Positions 3,160 through 20,912 of a stretch of DNA of 20,912 nucleotides are shown here, piece after piece; the stretch's first letter is position 1; the number at the start of each line of letters is the position of its first letter. Made by a program: the position numbers and the translations under genes. Below the pieces are notes generated by a model. That model was not told the DNA's origin. It did not search any database and worked only from the letters and a program-made list of their open reading frames with translations. Source of the DNA: a virus; the IMG/VR virus record IMGVR_UViG_3300036791_000617, positions 1 to 20,912 of that record. One strand, 5' to 3'.

Positions 3160-3423
3160 CTACTCCTCGCTTTGGGGTGTGGGTGACGGAGTAGACGTTA
3201 GCCTGATGGGGCGGGCGGCGTCGGCGGTGTGGGTGACATCACCTCGCTTTGGCGTCGCCCGTTCTGCGAGCCATTGGTCGAGGTCTTCTTCGCGGAATCG
3301 GATGGCGCCGTTGGGGAGTTTGAAGGCGGGGAGGTTGCCGTTTCGGACCCATGCGAGGATGGTTTCGGTGGTGAGTCCGAGGTTGTCGGCGACGTGGCGG
3401 GCGGTGAGTAGCCGGCCGATCAT
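3160..3423 (-). CDS. xis: Excisionase-like MerR/BldC-type HTH protein
   Basis: An 87-residue protein beginning MIGRLLTARHVADNLGLTTE. The first 60 residues are a classic HTH_17 (AlpA/BldC/excisionase) winged helix: LTARHVADNLG, TILAWVRNGNLPAFKL, then the wing (NGAIRFREEDLDQWL). Such proteins bind and bend DNA at attP to direct excision; some act as small transcription factors. The C-terminal 30 residues are Ser/Thr/Pro-rich and probably disordered. The start at 3423 overlaps the stop of the previous gene (ATGA). The position immediately before the integrase supports an excisionase role, although a purely regulatory role is possible. Confidence 0.8.
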   Translation of the reverse strand: MIGRLLTARHVADNLGLTTETILAWVRNGNLPAFKLPNGAIRFREEDLDQWLAERATPKRGDVTHTADAARPIRLTSTPSPTPQSEE

Positions 3424-3638
3424 CGGAGGCGTCCTTTGGGGCGGTTGAGCTCGCGGCGGGCGATCCGCAGGAGAGCGCGGCGGGCGGCGGCGACCCACCG
3501 GTACAGCTGTTCGAGCTCGGTGTCGGATTGGGCCTGGTGGGTGTGGTCTCGGGCGCGTTCGAGGGAGTGGCCGGCGCGGTCGAGGTGGCGGGCGGCGTCT
3601 CTCAGGTGGGCGGTGAGGTTGTTCGCCGGCGGGGTCAT
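3420..3638 (-). CDS. Small helical hypothetical protein
   Basis: A 72-residue, Arg/Ala-rich, mostly helical protein (MTPPANNLTAHLRDAARHLD, then YRWVAAARRALLRIARREL). It has no recognised domain and no membrane helix, and the C-terminal half is strongly basic. It is linked by 4-bp ATGA overlaps to the nuclease gene upstream and to the excisionase gene downstream, so it is almost certainly translated as part of the early operon. The function is unknown. A basic helical pair could contact nucleic acid, but nothing specific supports that. Confidence 0.65.
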   Translation of the reverse strand: MTPPANNLTAHLRDAARHLDRAGHSLERARDHTHQAQSDTELEQLYRWVAAARRALLRIARRELNRPKGRLR

Positions 3639-3961
3639 AGTTCGCGGAGGGCGAGGAGGTCGAGGAGGTCGTCGAGGGGGAGTGTGGCCATCCAGTCGTG
3701 GCGGCTGGGGCGGTGGATGACGATGGGGATGTCGAGCTCGTGGGCGTCGTCGATCGCTTGGCGTAGGGCTTTGGGGACGTTGAGGCGTTCTTGGCGTTTG
3801 ATTTCGATGTGGGTGCCGGGTGGGCCGGCGAGGATGTCGCCGCGTCCGACCTGGTCGCGGCCGTTGGATGTGCGTTGGGCGTGGGTCCAGCCGGCAGCGC
3901 GGAGGATGGCGACGATTTGGCGTTCGGCGACGGCGCCTTTGGTGCGGTCGCTCGCGGTCAT
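3635..3961 (-). CDS. PD-(D/E)XK nuclease, Holliday junction resolvase-like
   Basis: A 108-residue protein with the compact Hjc/VRR-NUC-type PD-(D/E)XK fold. The motifs are in order: Glu13 in the first helix (GAVAERQIVAILRAAGW), Asp42 (GRGDILAG), and Glu53-Ile-Lys55 (HIEIKRQE), followed by a basic helix (VPKALRQAIDDA). The length and the order of motifs fit archaeal-type Holliday junction resolvases, which cut four-way junctions made during recombination or replication. The ATG at 3961 overlaps the stop of the mIHF-like gene, and an in-frame upstream extension only shadows that gene. With the RecT-like protein and exonuclease upstream it would complete a phage recombination set. Junction specificity is inferred. 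Confidence 0.8.
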   Translation of the reverse strand: MTASDRTKGAVAERQIVAILRAAGWTHAQRTSNGRDQVGRGDILAGPPGTHIEIKRQERLNVPKALRQAIDDAHELDIPIVIHRPSRHDWMATLPLDDLLDLLALREL

Positions 3962-4269
3962 TGGCGTCGTTTGCGCCAGTTGCCGGTGCGGAGCTGGTTG
4001 GCGATGGCGGTGCGTTGCCGGCGGGTTAGGCGTGGGCTGTTGATGCGTTCGTCTGTTGGGATGCCGGCGCGGCCGAGGATGACCCAGACGTAGCGGTTGC
4101 CGACGCCGGGGACGGCGCGTAGGAGTTTCGCGAGTCGCATTGAGCTGTTGCCGCGTTCGATGGTGATGGCGGCGAGGCTGGGGCCGCTGACGCCGGCGTT
4201 GCGAATTTGGGCGCATGTGGCGGCGTGGGCGAGTCGGATTTCGTTGGCGTAGGTGGTGTCGACGGGCAT
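3958..4269 (-). CDS. Actinobacterial integration host factor-like protein (mIHF/sIHF)
   Basis: A 103-residue protein whose central part, LAKLLRAVPGVGNRYVWVI followed by LGRAGIPTDERINSPRLT, matches the layout of mycobacterial and Streptomyces IHF: a helix, a helix-hairpin-helix with PGVG, then IxxxRRI/L and a C-terminal helix. mIHF is a monomeric DNA-bending protein unrelated in sequence to E. coli IHF, and it is required by the L5 phage integrase. A phage-borne copy could bend attP between core and arms or organise the replication origin. The C-terminus is very basic (NWRKRRQ). The start at 4269 overlaps the upstream stop (ATGA). The family call rests on motif pattern alone. Confidence 0.7.
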   Translation of the reverse strand: MPVDTTYANEIRLAHAATCAQIRNAGVSGPSLAAITIERGNSSMRLAKLLRAVPGVGNRYVWVILGRAGIPTDERINSPRLTRRQRTAIANQLRTGNWRKRRQ

Positions 4270-4748
4270 CAGGTGGTTTCGATGGTGTGGAGGGCGTTGA
4301 CGGGGGTGGCGCAGTCGTAGCGGCAGCTGTCGCATTCGGCTTGGATGAACGGGTAGTTGGCGCCGGTGATTCGGACGGTGCCGGGGCAGTTTTCGGTGCG
4401 GAGTCGGTCCCAGATGCGGGCGTTTGGCGGGGGGTCGGGGATGGGGACGGTGCGGTAGTGCGGGCTGCGGATGACGGTGCCTGTCAGGAATTGGCGGGCG
4501 TAGTCATCGAATTTGGCGTGCATCTCGTCGATGGGGTTTCGGGCGGGTGGTGGTTCGGTTGGGAAGTCCTGGTCGCGGATGCGTTTGGCGAGTAGGCCGG
4601 GTCCAACGCCCTGTCTGCCATCGAACCAGCGGCAGGTGGCGAGGATTTCGTCGGGGGTGGCGTAGATGAGTAGGTGGGCGCCGTTGTCGACGCCTCTGGC
4701 GGCGAGGGCGGCGACTGCCTGTTCGTCGGTTGGTTGTTGGTCGTTCAT
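4269..4748 (-). CDS. Hypothetical protein with C-terminal Cys cluster
   Basis: A 159-residue protein. Residues 1-65 are helical (DEILATCRWFDGRQGVGPGL, then LAKRIRDQDFP); the middle is Pro-rich. The C-terminal part has four Cys in the pattern C-x20-C-x2-C-x3-C (ENCPG, AECDSCRYDC), which could bind zinc. It follows the replication initiator and the iteron region, and its stop overlaps the start of the mIHF-like gene (ATGA). The N-terminal helical part recalls C-terminal regions of some actinophage replication initiators, so it might be the detached second half of that protein or a helicase-loader-like partner. That is a weak resemblance; I do not recognise the family. Confidence 0.7.
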   Translation of the reverse strand: MNDQQPTDEQAVAALAARGVDNGAHLLIYATPDEILATCRWFDGRQGVGPGLLAKRIRDQDFPTEPPPARNPIDEMHAKFDDYARQFLTGTVIRSPHYRTVPIPDPPPNARIWDRLRTENCPGTVRITGANYPFIQAECDSCRYDCATPVNALHTIETT

Positions 4749-7344: not shown

Positions 7345-7542
7345 CTACCCGGGGTTGTGGGGCGGGTTGATGGGTGCTACTTCGACGTGTGGGAGGTGTG
7401 GCCGTGCGTTTGCGGCGGCGGTTTGTTCGTCGATGCGGGCGGCGAGTTTCGCGAGCTCGGTGTTGTCGACGCGGTTGCGTCGCCATTCGTAGGCCGCGAT
7501 GGCGGCGGCGATGGTGGCGACGGCGACGACGGCGAGGATCAT
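7345..7542 (-). CDS. Small membrane-anchored protein coupled to the repressor
   Basis: A 65-residue protein with one N-terminal membrane helix (MILAVVAVATIAAAIAAYEW), a short basic stop-transfer (RRNR), a heptad-like helix (ELAKLAARIDEQTAAANAR) and a Pro-rich tail. Its ATG overlaps the stop of the PAS-HTH gene (ATGA), so it should be made at a fixed ratio to it, including in the lysogen if that gene is the repressor. Possible roles are superinfection exclusion or a membrane partner of the PAS protein. Both are inferred from position; the family is not recognised. Confidence 0.7.
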   Translation of the reverse strand: MILAVVAVATIAAAIAAYEWRRNRVDNTELAKLAARIDEQTAAANARPHLPHVEVAPINPPHNPG

Positions 7543-8192
7543 TTGCCGTTCAGTGGCCGGAACAGTTCACCGACGGGAACTTTGAGCGTGTCGGCGATCC
7601 GTTGGAGGTTGTCACTGTTGGGGTGGATCCGCGCGTTTTCCCAGGCGGATACGTGTTGGCGGTGTTTGCCGAGCATGACCGCGAGTTTTTCTTGGGAGAT
7701 TTTCTGTTCGCGGCGTACGCGGCGGATGTTGACGGCGATTAGGTTGGTGACGGGGTCGGTGGTGGTCATTGGATTGGACACTTGCACCAGGACCGGCTCC
7801 TGCCAAGAATCGCCGCGCGTTTCATGAAACGCCGCGTTATGCGGGATTGTCGCAATTTGCGGGAAAAATCTTAGGACCGTCACGTAATGCTTTACTTTCT
7901 GGTACAGGACCGGCCAGCACATTCCACGGAACTTGAGCGGTTGCCGGTCGCGGTCGAGTAGCGTCGTGTCGCCCGCCCACCACGCGTTTCGGCGTAGGTT
8001 GTCGACACTCCGTTCGCGGGTCGGCGCGTCGACGTCTGGGGACAGTTGTTCGTACGCGGGCCGGCCGATCACTTCTCTCGCCGTCAGCTGGAACGTACCT
8101 TCGAACGCGTGGTTGACCACGGCGATTGTGAGGTCGGGGTCGGCGCGGACGGCGTACGCGGGCGTATCGACGATGTCGACCAGGCGTTGCAT
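7539..8192 (-). CDS. PAS-HTH transcriptional regulator, putative phage repressor
   Basis: A 217-residue regulator. Residues 1-110 look like a PAS sensor domain (PDLTIAVVNHAFEGTFQLTA, EVIGRPAYEQL, the beta-strands KFRGMCWPVLYQ and HYVTVLRFF). Residues 150-213 form a Cro/C1-type HTH (NIRRVRREQKISQEKLAVML, HVSAWENARIHPNSDNL, IADTLKVPVGELF). No S24/LexA-like self-cleavage domain is present. The start at 8192 has a strong Shine-Dalgarno (GGAAGGGA) about 7 bases upstream, and a good minus-strand promoter lies at 8307-8336. An internal ATG at 7769 would make an HTH-only form, but it lacks a clear ribosome site. Position and promoter point to the lysogeny repressor or switch regulator; the ligand is unknown. 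Confidence 0.8.
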   Translation of the reverse strand: MQRLVDIVDTPAYAVRADPDLTIAVVNHAFEGTFQLTAREVIGRPAYEQLSPDVDAPTRERSVDNLRRNAWWAGDTTLLDRDRQPLKFRGMCWPVLYQKVKHYVTVLRFFPQIATIPHNAAFHETRGDSWQEPVLVQVSNPMTTTDPVTNLIAVNIRRVRREQKISQEKLAVMLGKHRQHVSAWENARIHPNSDNLQRIADTLKVPVGELFRPLNGK

Positions 8193-8379: not shown

Positions 8380-8667
8380 ATTTCGCCGCTATCGGCAAAT
8401 GGATCATTGGCGTTCAAACTCTTGGACATGGCGCCGAGGGAAGATGCGTACAGCGCCTACAAGGTCGAGTTTGGGCTCCGTCTCGCCGCACTACGGAACG
8501 CCAAGAAACTGAGCCAGCGGGAGTTGGCGCTGCAACTGCCGGGCAGCACTGACGGGCCGCAGGTCAGTCGGTGGGAGCGCGGGGAGTCGCTGCCGATCTA
8601 CCCGACGCGTCTGGTGATCGCCGAGGTGCTCGGCGTCACGTTGCAATACCTGGACCACGGCGACTAG
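8371..8667 (+). CDS. Cro/CI-type HTH regulator (only plus-strand gene)
   Basis: A 98-residue DNA-binding protein with an XRE-type [22 protein letters not shown], then [19 protein letters not shown] and [16 protein letters not shown]. The recognition helix is in QVSRWERGE. It is transcribed away from the PAS-HTH gene, from a shared region with paired palindromes, as Cro is from CI. The ATG at 8371 is preferred because a TATCAT box ends 9 bp upstream, giving a leaderless message; TTG at 8341 and ATG at 8428 are alternatives. Its stop overlaps the stop of the convergent collagen-like tail gene. Whether it is the Cro-like or the main repressor is open. Confidence 0.8.
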
Positions 8668-9284
8668 CCGGCTTTGATTTGCGCGTAGGTGGGGGCGAGC
8701 GGGGTCAGTCGGCCGAATGCGGTGGCGGGCCAGGCGCCGGCGGCTTTGGGTCCCCACATCCGGCCGGTGGTGGTGTCGAGGTAGATCGATCCGTCGACGC
8801 CGGTGCCGGCGGTCGGGGCGCCGGTGCCGCTGACGAACGTGGATGCGCCGGACGGGCCGGCGGGCCCTGTCGGACCTGTCGGGCCTGGTGGGCCCGTTGT
8901 TCCTGTGGGTCCCGCAGTGCCTGTTGCCCCCGGCGGGCCTGCGGGGCCTGTTGCCCCGGTTGGGCCGGCCGGTCCGGTTGGGCCGGTGGGTCCTGCGGGA
9001 CCGGTGGTGCCGCCGCCGCCGGCTGGGGGTGTGGCGGTGACGGTTCCGGCTGCCCACATTCTGGTTCCATCGGCGAGGATGTAGGCGGGTGCGCCGGCGG
9101 GCGGCTGGGTCATCCCGTTGAGCTGCGGGATTTGGTAGGTGGCGCCGCCGAGCTCGATGTTGGCGTACCGGCGGTCGGTGCCGGCGGGTGCGTATGTGCC
9201 GACGATCATCCGTAGGCCGGTGTCGGTGTCGAGTGCGCGGCGTAGGACGGCGGCGAGCGTGCGGGTGGCGGGTACGTTGGTCAT
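8664..9284 (-). CDS. Collagen-like minor tail protein / tail fibre
   Basis: A 206-residue protein. Residues 1-88 form an N-terminal domain ([38 protein letters not shown]) that probably anchors it to the tail tip. Residues 93-147 (8844-9008) are about 18 Gly-X-Y triplets, mostly GPT/GPA/ATG, forming a collagen-like triple helix. Residues 148-206 are a small C-terminal module with a typical phage fibre sequence ([20 protein letters not shown]) ending TYAQIKAG. Collagen stalks are common in actinophage tail fibres. The start at 9284 overlaps the upstream stop (ATGA); the stop overlaps that of the convergent HTH gene. A role in receptor binding is inferred. Confidence 0.8.
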
Positions 9285-10459
9285 GCGGCGATCGGTTTCG
9301 CGTCGGCAGCTTCGCGCCACACGTCCCGGCCGTGGTAACGCCGGTTTGTGTGCGGCGTGATGGTCGGGGTTAGGAGCGTGCGGGTGATGATGTTTTGCGG
9401 GTCGGTGTGCAGGCTGGTAACGACTTGGTCGATGAGGTGCTGTTCGGTGCGGCCGTCGGGGTAGTCGACTTGGATGGTGTCGCCGGCTTCGAGCGCGGGG
9501 TTTGGGGCGGTGGTGAGCGTCAGCTGCTGGGTTTGTTTGAGCTGCAGGTTCAGCAGCGATTGGGCGGTTGCGGCGGCGTCGGCGTCGGTGGCGGCGGTGG
9601 TGGAGTCGGCCATTAGCGCGACCTTGCCGAATGGGCCGCCCCATCTGACGGCGGAGGTCGGGTCGTCGTAGGTCGCGAGGCCGGTGACGGGCGCGCCGTC
9701 GGCTGCGCTTGTGCCGGTGACGATCACGCCGTTGTAGATGCCGGTGCGGTCCAGGGATTCAGACGCGTCGACCATCACCCCGGTTTGGCTGGCGTCGACG
9801 GTCCAGACGACGGGGTCGGTGCCGGCTGGTTTGGCGGCGAATATGAAGTCGCCGTTGGCGTTGAAGTACGTTTCGGCGGCGTAGGACTGTTCGAGTGTCG
9901 AGATGGCGTCGGTGCGTAGGCCGGTGAATGTGATGTCGCCCATCGGTGTCGGCGGCTGGTACGGCTGCAGGTAGGCGATCGCCGATCCGAACACGTCTTG
10001 GACGATCCCGCACGCGACGTCGGCGGGCAGCATGCCGGCGGCGGCGTATGGGGCGGTGAACGGTTCGTCGGCGAGCTGGGCGCCACGATCGGCGAGCTCC
10101 AGTGTCGCGGACGCGTCGAGGGTGTCCCAGGTGACGGATTCGACTCGCAGGCGCCCGAGTAGAACGAGTTCGGTGGTGCCGTCGGCGTATCGGAGGCCTC
10201 GGTGAACGAGCGCGTATCCGCCGAGTGGAAGTGTGCGAATGTCGATTCCGAGGTTTTCGCTTTGGTCGAGTGACCAGGGGATTTGGATGGTGCCTACCCG
10301 CCGGTTTTGGGCGGTCCGGTCGATCGTGACGGTGCCGTCTTCGACGGGGACCGATACGGCGTCCGCATCGGTTTGGCCGGGAAAGATGAGCTCGCACGCG
10401 GACGCGATGACGTGCGAATAGCGGAGCGATTCGAAGAACTGGTTGGTGGCGGACTGCAT
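9281..10459 (-). CDS. Minor tail protein, DUF5047-like
   Basis: A 392-residue tail protein. The N-terminal half has beta-rich sequence with [20 protein letters not shown] and the start [20 protein letters not shown], typical of the DUF5047 family of actinophage tail proteins. The C-terminal half ([40 protein letters not shown]) resembles the baseplate-hub-like part of such proteins. It sits after the tape measure and one other minor tail gene, where distal tail and hub proteins lie. The start at ATG 10459 gives an ATGA overlap; an earlier in-frame ATG at 10480 lies in the upstream gene. Confidence 0.8.
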
Positions 10460-18983: not shown

Positions 18984-20720
18984 TCAATGTACTGCCGGGT
19001 CCGGCGGCGGGCGGTGCGCCGCCAGAAGCGCCCACACCACTGCCCTGACCAGATGCGGCGCCCCGAGCGGCAGCAGCACCAACCCCGACGTTGTCTCCCG
19101 CACCGTCGCTTTCGTGACCGCGTCGTCGAGCTCGGCAGTAACAACGTCGTGGCAAACCTGCCCCGTCGCCGCCAGATCGCGTAGCAGCACCAGCCCCAAA
19201 CGGGTGTGCGCACCATGCCTCGCGTCCGCGATTCCTCGAAGGCCCATCGGCAGGCGGTCAAACAGCGACGCGCCAACCAAAACCCGCCGCACACCCCCAC
19301 CATCGGCCAGCGCCTGCACGTCCGCGACCGCGCTATCCCAGTCGCCACGCGGCCACCCATCCACCTCCCACCGCCCATCCGCCAGCCGGCGAGCACACCC
19401 CACCGCCGCACCCAGCCCGTAGTGGTCCTCCAGGCCGACGAACGCCGGCCCGTCCGCCACCCCAACCCCAGCCAGGCCGTCCCACCTCGCACGATCGATG
19501 AGAACTTCCGCCGGCGCGGCGCGTTGTAGCACCAGCGGCCACTGGTTCAGCCACTGCGCCCGGAACGCCTCGACGGGGTCGGGTTCGTCGACGTCCAACT
19601 GCCCACCGCCGCGAGCTCGGGCCAACGCCGCCGAGATCATCCCCTCCCGCTGAGCCGTCCAGTGCGGCGACGCCGCCCGCCACCCGTCACGATCCTCCAG
19701 CTGGGCGTTGCGCGGCGCCGACCACTCCACCAGCAGCACCGACTCGGGCGCGTCGAGCGTGTCGAACGCCGCCCGCCGCCTGTTCAACATCAGCGACGTC
19801 GCGGCACGGTGCGCCGTCGACACCAGAAGCAGCTGGGGTTGTTCGCGTTCGACCATCGTCGGTTCGATCCCATCATCAACCGCCGACGCCGACACCTTCC
19901 ACCCCTCATCCACCGCCGCCAACCCCGCACTGAGGCCATAAACGCCGGTGCGAGCCTTTATCACCCACCTAGACCCGTCGTCCAATTCGATGCTTTCCCG
20001 GCCGTTCGCCTCATACACCGTGAAATGGTCCTGATCCCGAGCCCAAATCCGCACCGGCCGCTGCACATCCCGACACACCGGCAAATCCTTCCCCGTATGC
20101 ACGATCACCTGCGGCTCCCCAAACCGACCCGTCTGCTGCAACCGCCACAACAACAGCTCCCGCAACCACCACGACTTCCCACACTGACGCGCCATCGTCA
20201 AAATCGCCGACGCCCACACCAACCGCCCGTCAGCATCCACCTCAAGCAGCCTGGTTGTCACCAGCCGCTGCCACCACCGGAACGGACGCCCAGTCCTCGC
20301 CGCCGCCGCATCGATCACCTCACCACCCACCGACCCGACCGCCGCCGGGTGCGGCGCCGTCATCAACCTCGGCCACGTCGCCTCCGCCGGCAGCTCCCGC
20401 AACTCATCCAGCCACGCCGCGCCATCCCACACCTCGCTATCGACCGGAAACCCATGCGGCTCCCCCTCGGCAACCTGGATCCGGTCGGTGCCCTTCAGCC
20501 CGCCGGCGGCGAGGTTGCACCGCTTATGAGCCGGCCCGAAATAGCCGCTGCGATCGTCGGTGTGATCCAGATGCCACGCCTCGCCCGGAAGGATCAGCTC
20601 ACCGCACCGGACGCAGCCGGTGGCGCCCTGGGCGACGATCGGCGCCCACGTCGCCCGCGTTCGCTTGTGCTGCGCACCGTAGCCCTGCTCTTTGCTCGTT
20701 CGCTGCCGGGTCGCGGTCAT
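18984..20720 (-). CDS. terL: Terminase large subunit with fused N-terminal HNH endonuclease
   Basis: A 578-residue protein that joins two parts normally made separately. Residues 10-75 are an HNH nuclease: Cys36-x2-Cys39, His50-Leu-Asp52-His53, His65 and Cys68-Asn69 (HKRCN). From about 120 is a terminase ATPase: Walker A ARQCGKS (177-183), Walker B LAAVDE (267-272), coupling motif LLLVSTAH (297-304). The C-terminal RNase H-like nuclease (425-578) looks impaired: the usual first Asp is GLED (Glu431/Asp432), the second sits in VLVGASL (480-486) without an acid, and the last in APHLVRA (554-560) has His where Asp is usual. The HNH part may therefore do the cutting. No separate small terminase was seen. 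Weak ribosome site AGGG before the ATG. Confidence 0.9.
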   Translation of the reverse strand: MTATRQRTSKEQGYGAQHKRTRATWAPIVAQGATGCVRCGELILPGEAWHLDHTDDRSGYFGPAHKRCNLAAGGLKGTDRIQVAEGEPHGFPVDSEVWDGAAWLDELRELPAEATWPRLMTAPHPAAVGSVGGEVIDAAAARTGRPFRWWQRLVTTRLLEVDADGRLVWASAILTMARQCGKSWWLRELLLWRLQQTGRFGEPQVIVHTGKDLPVCRDVQRPVRIWARDQDHFTVYEANGRESIELDDGSRWVIKARTGVYGLSAGLAAVDEGWKVSASAVDDGIEPTMVEREQPQLLLVSTAHRAATSLMLNRRRAAFDTLDAPESVLLVEWSAPRNAQLEDRDGWRAASPHWTAQREGMISAALARARGGGQLDVDEPDPVEAFRAQWLNQWPLVLQRAAPAEVLIDRARWDGLAGVGVADGPAFVGLEDHYGLGAAVGCARRLADGRWEVDGWPRGDWDSAVADVQALADGGGVRRVLVGASLFDRLPMGLRGIADARHGAHTRLGLVLLRDLAATGQVCHDVVTAELDDAVTKATVRETTSGLVLLPLGAPHLVRAVVWALLAAHRPPPDPAVH

Positions 20721-20912
20721 CGCCCTATTTTCGCCCGGAGAGGGAGATGATCGTCAAGAGGCCTCGCGCGGTGCGTACCTCAAAAAAATTCGGCCGTTCA
20801 ACTTTTCGATTTCGCGTTTCGTTTTTGCGATTGTTCGAAGCGAACTGCGAGCAGGATGGCGGGTGGGGTGGGGGGTGGGGGTGGCGTGCCGGGTGGTGGT
20901 GGCCGTGCCGGT
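20721..20912. other. Non-coding end region upstream of terminase
   Basis: No convincing gene in these 192 bp. Near the terminase start the DNA is mixed; 20781-20840 is AT-richer with A and T runs, unlike the rest of the window; 20851-20912 is extremely G-rich on the plus strand. A weak promoter-like TTGAAC lies upstream of the A/T run on the minus strand, without a good -10. The position just before terminase is where cos or pac and the late promoter are normally found. Confidence 0.4.
20861..20884 (+). other. G-quadruplex-type G-tract array
   Basis: Four runs of three to six G (ggg, gggg, gggggg, ggggg) separated by single T on the plus strand, ending about 30 bp from the window edge. Single-base loops make this a strong G-quadruplex motif by sequence. 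It lies upstream of terminase, where the packaging site should be. Confidence 0.6.

Follow-up and report, generated by a model that had tools for sequence, protein, structure and literature searches.

An HNH domain fused to a large terminase with an eroded RNase H-like triad in small soil siphoviruses, and clustered contig ends beside the fused gene

The stretch of DNA analyzed here, hereafter the window, is 20,912 bp long and constitutes an IMG/VR virus record. Its minus strand has the gene order of a siphovirus: terminase, portal, protease, capsid, tail genes, recombination genes, integrase, and amidase. At 18984–20720, minus strand, the original prediction had placed an HNH nuclease fused to a terminase whose own nuclease looks dead, and these coordinates are correct: the open reading frame is one intact, uninterrupted gene encoding 578 aa, with the ATG at 20720 and the stop at 18984–18986. 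The encoded protein matches phrog_1808 (HNH; residues 4–79; 1.9e-10) and phrog_9 (TerL; residues 107–418; 8.8e-26). The fusion is recognized by neither Pfam nor NCBIfam, and a PDB profile search with the family profile returned only spurious repeat-protein matches. The AlphaFold (AF2) model has a mean pLDDT of 89.6 and a pTM of 0.67. Its top Foldseek match in the PDB is HK97 TerL (6z6d, E 4.1e-22), and the matches include full-length TerL as well as isolated TerL nuclease domains. An assembly artefact or a frameshift as the origin of the fusion was ruled out, because many independent contigs carry it.

A scan of viral contigs yielded 131 relatives, of which 80 were retained; most span the whole fusion, with 48–94% identity across residues 1–578. 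Three further scans brought the total to 114 de-duplicated sequences, the window counted in, and all of them derive from viral contigs; denominators below 114 in the per-residue counts reflect gaps at contig ends. HNH is present in every sequence whose contig reaches the N-terminus, and the eight sequences without some of the HNH residues are all cut off by a contig end. Among 50,697 cultured phage records, no single place covered 80% of the fusion query. Similarly, two scans of genome contigs for prophages, as a guide to the host, found no relative, a plasmid scan recovered one distant terminase only, and no description of an HNH-TerL fusion was found in the open literature searched. The family contigs are mostly 18–30 kb. 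Collectively, the fusion is the large terminase of a large group of small soil siphoviruses, and the member in the window has an integrase.

The N-terminal HNH (beta-beta-alpha metal) domain spans residues 1–75 (20496–20720, minus; phrog_1808, 1.1e-11), and the model contains a hairpin (residues 49–53/60–65) and a helix (residues 66–72). Compared with solved HNH structures, it gave a weak Foldseek match to the Gme HNH nicking endonuclease (4h9d; prob 0.84, E 0.27). The motif set at residues 36–69 (20514–20615, minus), predicted to be intact, indeed contains C36, C39, D52, H53, H65, C68, and N69, and thus the Cys-x-x-Cys zinc site, the catalytic His, and the catalytic Asn of an HNH nuclease are present. 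In the 114-sequence set, C36 and C39 are conserved in 106/106, H53 in 107/107, and N69 in 106/109. Position 52 is Asp in 48 members and Gly in 58, leaving approximately half of the HNH domains without an Asp immediately before the catalytic His. However, 52 of the 58 type-1 domains with Gly at this position (LGH) have Asp at position 50, from which we infer that Asp50 may stand in functionally for Asp52, the acid usually being retained two residues earlier on the same strand. The domain is joined to TerL by a flexible linker (residues 75–95; 20436–20498, minus), which is variable in the alignment and has a pLDDT below 50 at residues 75–84. A second HNH motif was sought in four genomes (the window, G014, and two other relatives), and none was found besides the fused HNH.

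The TerL packaging ATPase domain occupies residues 96–418 (19467–20435, minus) and accounts for the phrog_9 and 6z6d matches. As predicted, Walker A (residues 176–183, MARQCGKS, with R178-Q-C-G-K182-S183; 20172–20195, minus) and Walker B (residues 267–272, ending in D271-E272; 19905–19922, minus) are intact, with K182 conserved in 110/110 and D271/E272 in 112/112. The remaining residues, 419–578 (18987–19466, minus), show the secondary-structure order of the RNase H fold in the AF2 model, but the catalytic triad is eroded. In HK97 TerL, this triad consists of D302, D388, and D471 (PMC9410871). At the first position, E431-D432 (19425–19430, minus) was correctly predicted and represents a remnant of the site: residue 431 is Glu in 110 members and Asp in 3, and D432 is found in 113/113. 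In alignments, E431 corresponds to the first Asp of the TerLs of Preamble and its group and, by MAFFT, to HK97 D302. The second acid would be expected at VGAS (residues 482–485; 19266–19277, minus), which aligns with LVGAQ of Island3 TerL, and this segment is never acidic (0/113). Asp488, which lies in an FDR comparable to the FDR at HK97 D388, was rejected as the second acid, because it follows the strand and is Asp in only 73/113. At the third position, H556 (19053–19055, minus) begins the last helix of the model (residues 555–569); it is His in 103/113, and Asp occurs only in L203 and L206, the two most divergent members, which are likewise fused.

The claim that two of the three positions lack acids therefore stands for VLVGAS (residues 480–485) and GAPH (residues 553–556), but the third is not simply empty, since it holds a near-invariant His. 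In some RuvC-like nucleases, a His here is compatible with activity. Neither of the two observations named beforehand as refuting was made: the model topology and the profile alignments place no three acids in the C-terminal domain, and the full acidic triad is kept in 0/113 fused homologues, so that the three-acid criterion for TerL is not met. The mapping onto HK97 D302/D388/D471 rests on MAFFT, the model, and intermediates, with no supporting hhalign profile comparison. R514-D515 and D532 are also strongly conserved in this domain. Moreover, all domains of the fusion protein are under purifying selection, with omega in three close pairs of ~0.07–0.17 for the C-terminal domain and 0.22–0.41 for the HNH region.

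No small terminase had been visible in the sequence, and this holds at the profile level: no convincing TerS match was obtained among the scanned window ORFs, although a divergent TerS could escape. The sole match, a weak one to phrog_57 (1.3e-4), comes from an excisionase-like HTH protein (3160–3498), which was rejected as TerS because it has better excisionase matches and adjoins the integrase.

Two distinct HNH subtypes occupy the same N-terminal position on TerL. Type 1 (WxL[D/G]H...GPxHxxCN) belongs to phrog_1808, and type 2 (LDHxPPLxxH...CCRLxPxCxxCN) matches phrog_10378/338/589. On a quick tree of the TerL part alone, with SH-aLRT support only, the types interchange, with 9 changes for type 2, at least 3 of which are forced by strongly supported branches. 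In particular, the window (type 1) sits within a mostly type-2 region, and L004 and L015 are sisters yet carry different HNH types. Among the relatives found, HNH has been replaced repeatedly but never lost, which suggests that its function is required.

The contig ends of the family cluster at a putative cos site at 20745–20780 (minus) of the window. In 67 of the 107 members with a usable position, a contig end lies upstream of the fused gene at a distance of ≤330 bp, and in 62 it lies within ~100 bp. In L002, a close relative with 94% identity, the contig end falls at the homologous CTC, 39 nt upstream of the ATG, and the coding strand of the window is predicted to be cut between 20761 and 20760 (CACCGCGCGAGGC / CTCTTGACG). 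Among the type-1 contigs with an end ≤330 bp upstream, 15 of 39 begin at NTC[ACG], mostly GTCA or CTCA, against a chance expectation of ~2; this pattern was picked after viewing the data. In 13 uncut type-1 contigs, NTC[ACG] directly follows a GACCCCCG-like sequence (GACCCCCGCA, GACCCCCGTTC, and similar). Both contig ends of G014 (30,608 bp) fall in the putative site. L067 ends on the right at TGAC and starts on the left at TTCA with the intervening bases missing, a gap consistent with a 3' overhang trimmed in library preparation, of ~9 nt judging from L046. L011, L062, L063, and L078 instead cross the site with terminal overlap, indicating that they were assembled as circles or concatemers. 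The evidence for the site is thus the position of metagenome contig ends, with no reads mapped, and some of these ends are circular overlaps rather than physical termini. Collectively, the clustered ends resemble cos termini that carry short 3' overhangs and suggest a site-specific cut beside the fused gene. The 11-base 3' overhang of Arthrobacter cluster AN phages, CCCGCGCCACC (PMC5679792), resembles CCCCGCGCCA/GTCACGG of L016. Additionally, upstream of the fused gene, most members with either HNH type have a pyrimidine tract (TTTTCCCCCC or CTCTCTC) ~5–15 nt past the putative cut (in L016, around 2530–2560); this tract is a possible terminase binding element.

Many mycobacterial and Arthrobacter phages carry an unfused type-1 HNH next to their right end, typically as the last gene. 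The comparison of TerL sites and left ends covered only a selection of cultured phages. Positions 1/2/3 of TerL are Tyr/Asp/Asp in Charlie (left end GTCA) and Eyre (GTCG), Ala/none/Asp in Island3 (GTCA) and MooMoo (GTCG), Ala/Asp/Asp in Shoya and Sarge (GTCA) and in Kumotta (GCCA), and Asp/Asp/Asp in Bridgette (GGGT), Cornie (GGCT), and Faja/Raphaella (GGTG). This distribution is suggestive of a pairing between GTC[AG] left ends and a TerL without the first Asp, and between other ends and the full DDD; however, Kumotta is an exception, having lost the first Asp with a GCCA end, and the comparison involves only about three independent TerL lineages against three. In Preamble, Rollins, Maja, and Morrissey, where HNHs of other types lie at the right end or close to it, the acids of positions 1 and 3 are retained and no second acid is clear. 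The survey of co-occurrence thus agrees with the original prediction in that every fused homologue lacks the triad, but acid loss is not restricted to the fusion, since actinophages with a separate HNH also lack RNase H acids. Profile comparison with the fused family supports Island3/MooMoo (E 4.3e-7) and the Preamble group (E 6.3e-7), and other cultured TerLs are unsupported; the TerL alignment between the fused family and cultured phages is uncertain at such distance.

Among these phages, Island3 and MooMoo (Brujitavirus, Moomoovirus) share with the fusion a type-1 HNH (61% identity between Island3 and L016 over 59 aa), a GTC[AG] left end, and a TerL with an alignable C-terminal domain, in which the second acid is missing at the same place (LVGAQ vs. 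LVGAS). In contrast to the fusion, they encode HNH separately, as the last gene and across cos; their TerL is preceded by a gene 1, for which the MooMoo annotation is small terminase, and has lost the first Asp and kept the third. Similarly, Charlie (Nclasvirinae) and Gordonia phage Eyre carry the same HNH family near the right end with a GTCA or GTCG left end, and the right end of Charlie, TGACCCCGCCGCAATGG, resembles the GACCCCCGCA site of the fused family; however, their HNH is unfused, and TerL has changed the first Asp to Tyr with positions 2 and 3 still Asp. HK97, the top structural match, packages at cos with 3' overhangs and has an HNH partner, GP74, which promotes cos cleavage (PMC9410871). 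In HK97, however, the HNH is a separate protein, the triad is complete, and TerS is separate, whereas here the HNH lies within the terminase gene and the contig ends, at the inferred cos, lie directly upstream. The fusion would act like the HNH-plus-terminase of HK97, but as one polypeptide and probably with a changed division of labour. The phi29 gp16 protein is homologous to TerL and has a nuclease domain that is vestigial and inactive (PMC9410871); unlike the fusion, it packages protein-capped unit-length DNA, for which no cutting is needed, and has no HNH.

The fusion, its conservation, the loss of acids, the swapping of HNH types, and the clustering of contig ends are direct observations. 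With one nuclease site conserved and the other eroded, the most parsimonious interpretation is that HNH nicks at cos, and we consider it probable that HNH makes the cos cut while the RNase H domain stays as a structural part of the motor. A cos-associated HNH nuclease would have become fused to the N-terminus of TerL, and the TerL ring, with its normal ATPase, would translocate the DNA. The linker-tethered HNH domains would nick both strands at cos, at points a few bases apart and immediately upstream of the gene, producing short 3' overhangs and thereby starting and ending packaging. The RNase H-like domain, with the second acid gone and the third almost always gone, would not cut and would be retained as a structural or a DNA- or portal-contacting part. 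The conservation of HNH, its swapping without loss, the absence of another HNH in four genomes, and the clustered ends favour the proposed takeover of cutting, which is nevertheless inferred from sequence and not shown biochemically; the same applies to the roles of HNH as the catalyst that cuts both strands and of the RNase H domain as inactive.

The presence of an HNH does not in itself imply a takeover, because HK97 and Bridgette keep the triad alongside HNH. HK97 TerL and HNH act jointly on cos (PMC9410871), and the fused protein might likewise use HNH to nick or stimulate while a rearranged C-terminal site (E431, D432, H556, and perhaps D515/D525) cuts. The conserved E431, D432, and H556 could form an unusual active site; these residues, R514-D515, and D532 are strongly conserved, and the low omega of the C-terminal domain indicates strong purifying selection. 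We nevertheless regard such cooperation as unlikely, since the second acid (HK97 D388) is absent in 113/113, and the cultured relatives have lost differing combinations of acids, a pattern more reminiscent of relaxed constraint on catalysis than of a single alternative site.

Alternatively, neither site might cut, with another phage or host nuclease making the ends and HNH only binding cos. The window encodes a RusA-like resolvase with a PD-(D/E)XK match (phrog_244, PF24608) and an exonuclease, and many HNH domains have Gly at position 52, but the near-invariance of His53 and Asn69 would be unnecessary for binding alone, and we know of no cos system that relies on a RusA-like enzyme; this explanation is very doubtful. 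It is hardly credible that HNH is a homing-endonuclease-like passenger on TerL without a packaging role. A passenger would be expected to be often absent or degenerate, whereas none of the relatives found has lost the fusion, the active-site residues are retained, no other HNH motif is present in the four genomes examined, and the fused HNH matches the one that cultured phages encode next to cos; these points outweigh the exchange of two HNH families several times at the same position and the frequent location of homing HNH endonucleases beside terminase genes (PMC10448857).

Beyond cleavage by HNH, the protein might be a single-polypeptide terminase in which HNH is both the sole cos endonuclease and the cos reader, with TerS and the RNase H site unneeded, and HNH rather than TerL might cut cos in several actinophage lineages; we put this forward only tentatively. 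The role of HNH in HK97-like phages is unclear because TerL is credited with the cut. The fusion places both activities on one protein with one site apparently lost, which makes them separable by site mutation, and Island3, MooMoo, Charlie, and Shoya are cultured phages offering the same question in the laboratory. If the takeover is true, a phage motor can replace its own nuclease by a swappable domain.

Other arrangements were observed in cultured phages. The last gene of Gordonia phage McGonagall (L084; 16335–16976), annotated as polynucleotide kinase, starts with an HNH domain and continues with a kinase-like part, and the TerL of this phage has none of the three RNase H acids. In Arthrobacter phages Faja and Raphaella (L222, L233; 599–2258), TerL is split into separate ATPase and nuclease genes, the latter retaining an apparent DDD triad. 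In the window, a small protein (3958–4335, minus) shows weak similarity to S13-like H2TH (PF22525, E 0.068) and, in a PGVG motif, resembles actinobacterial mIHF; it may help integration or cos bending. Moreover, a regulator (7539–8192, minus) combines a weak PAS-like sensor domain (E 1.5e-4) with a Cro/CI-type HTH, which is unusual in a small phage, and a tail fibre protein (8664–9644, minus) carries collagen-like Gly-rich repeats.
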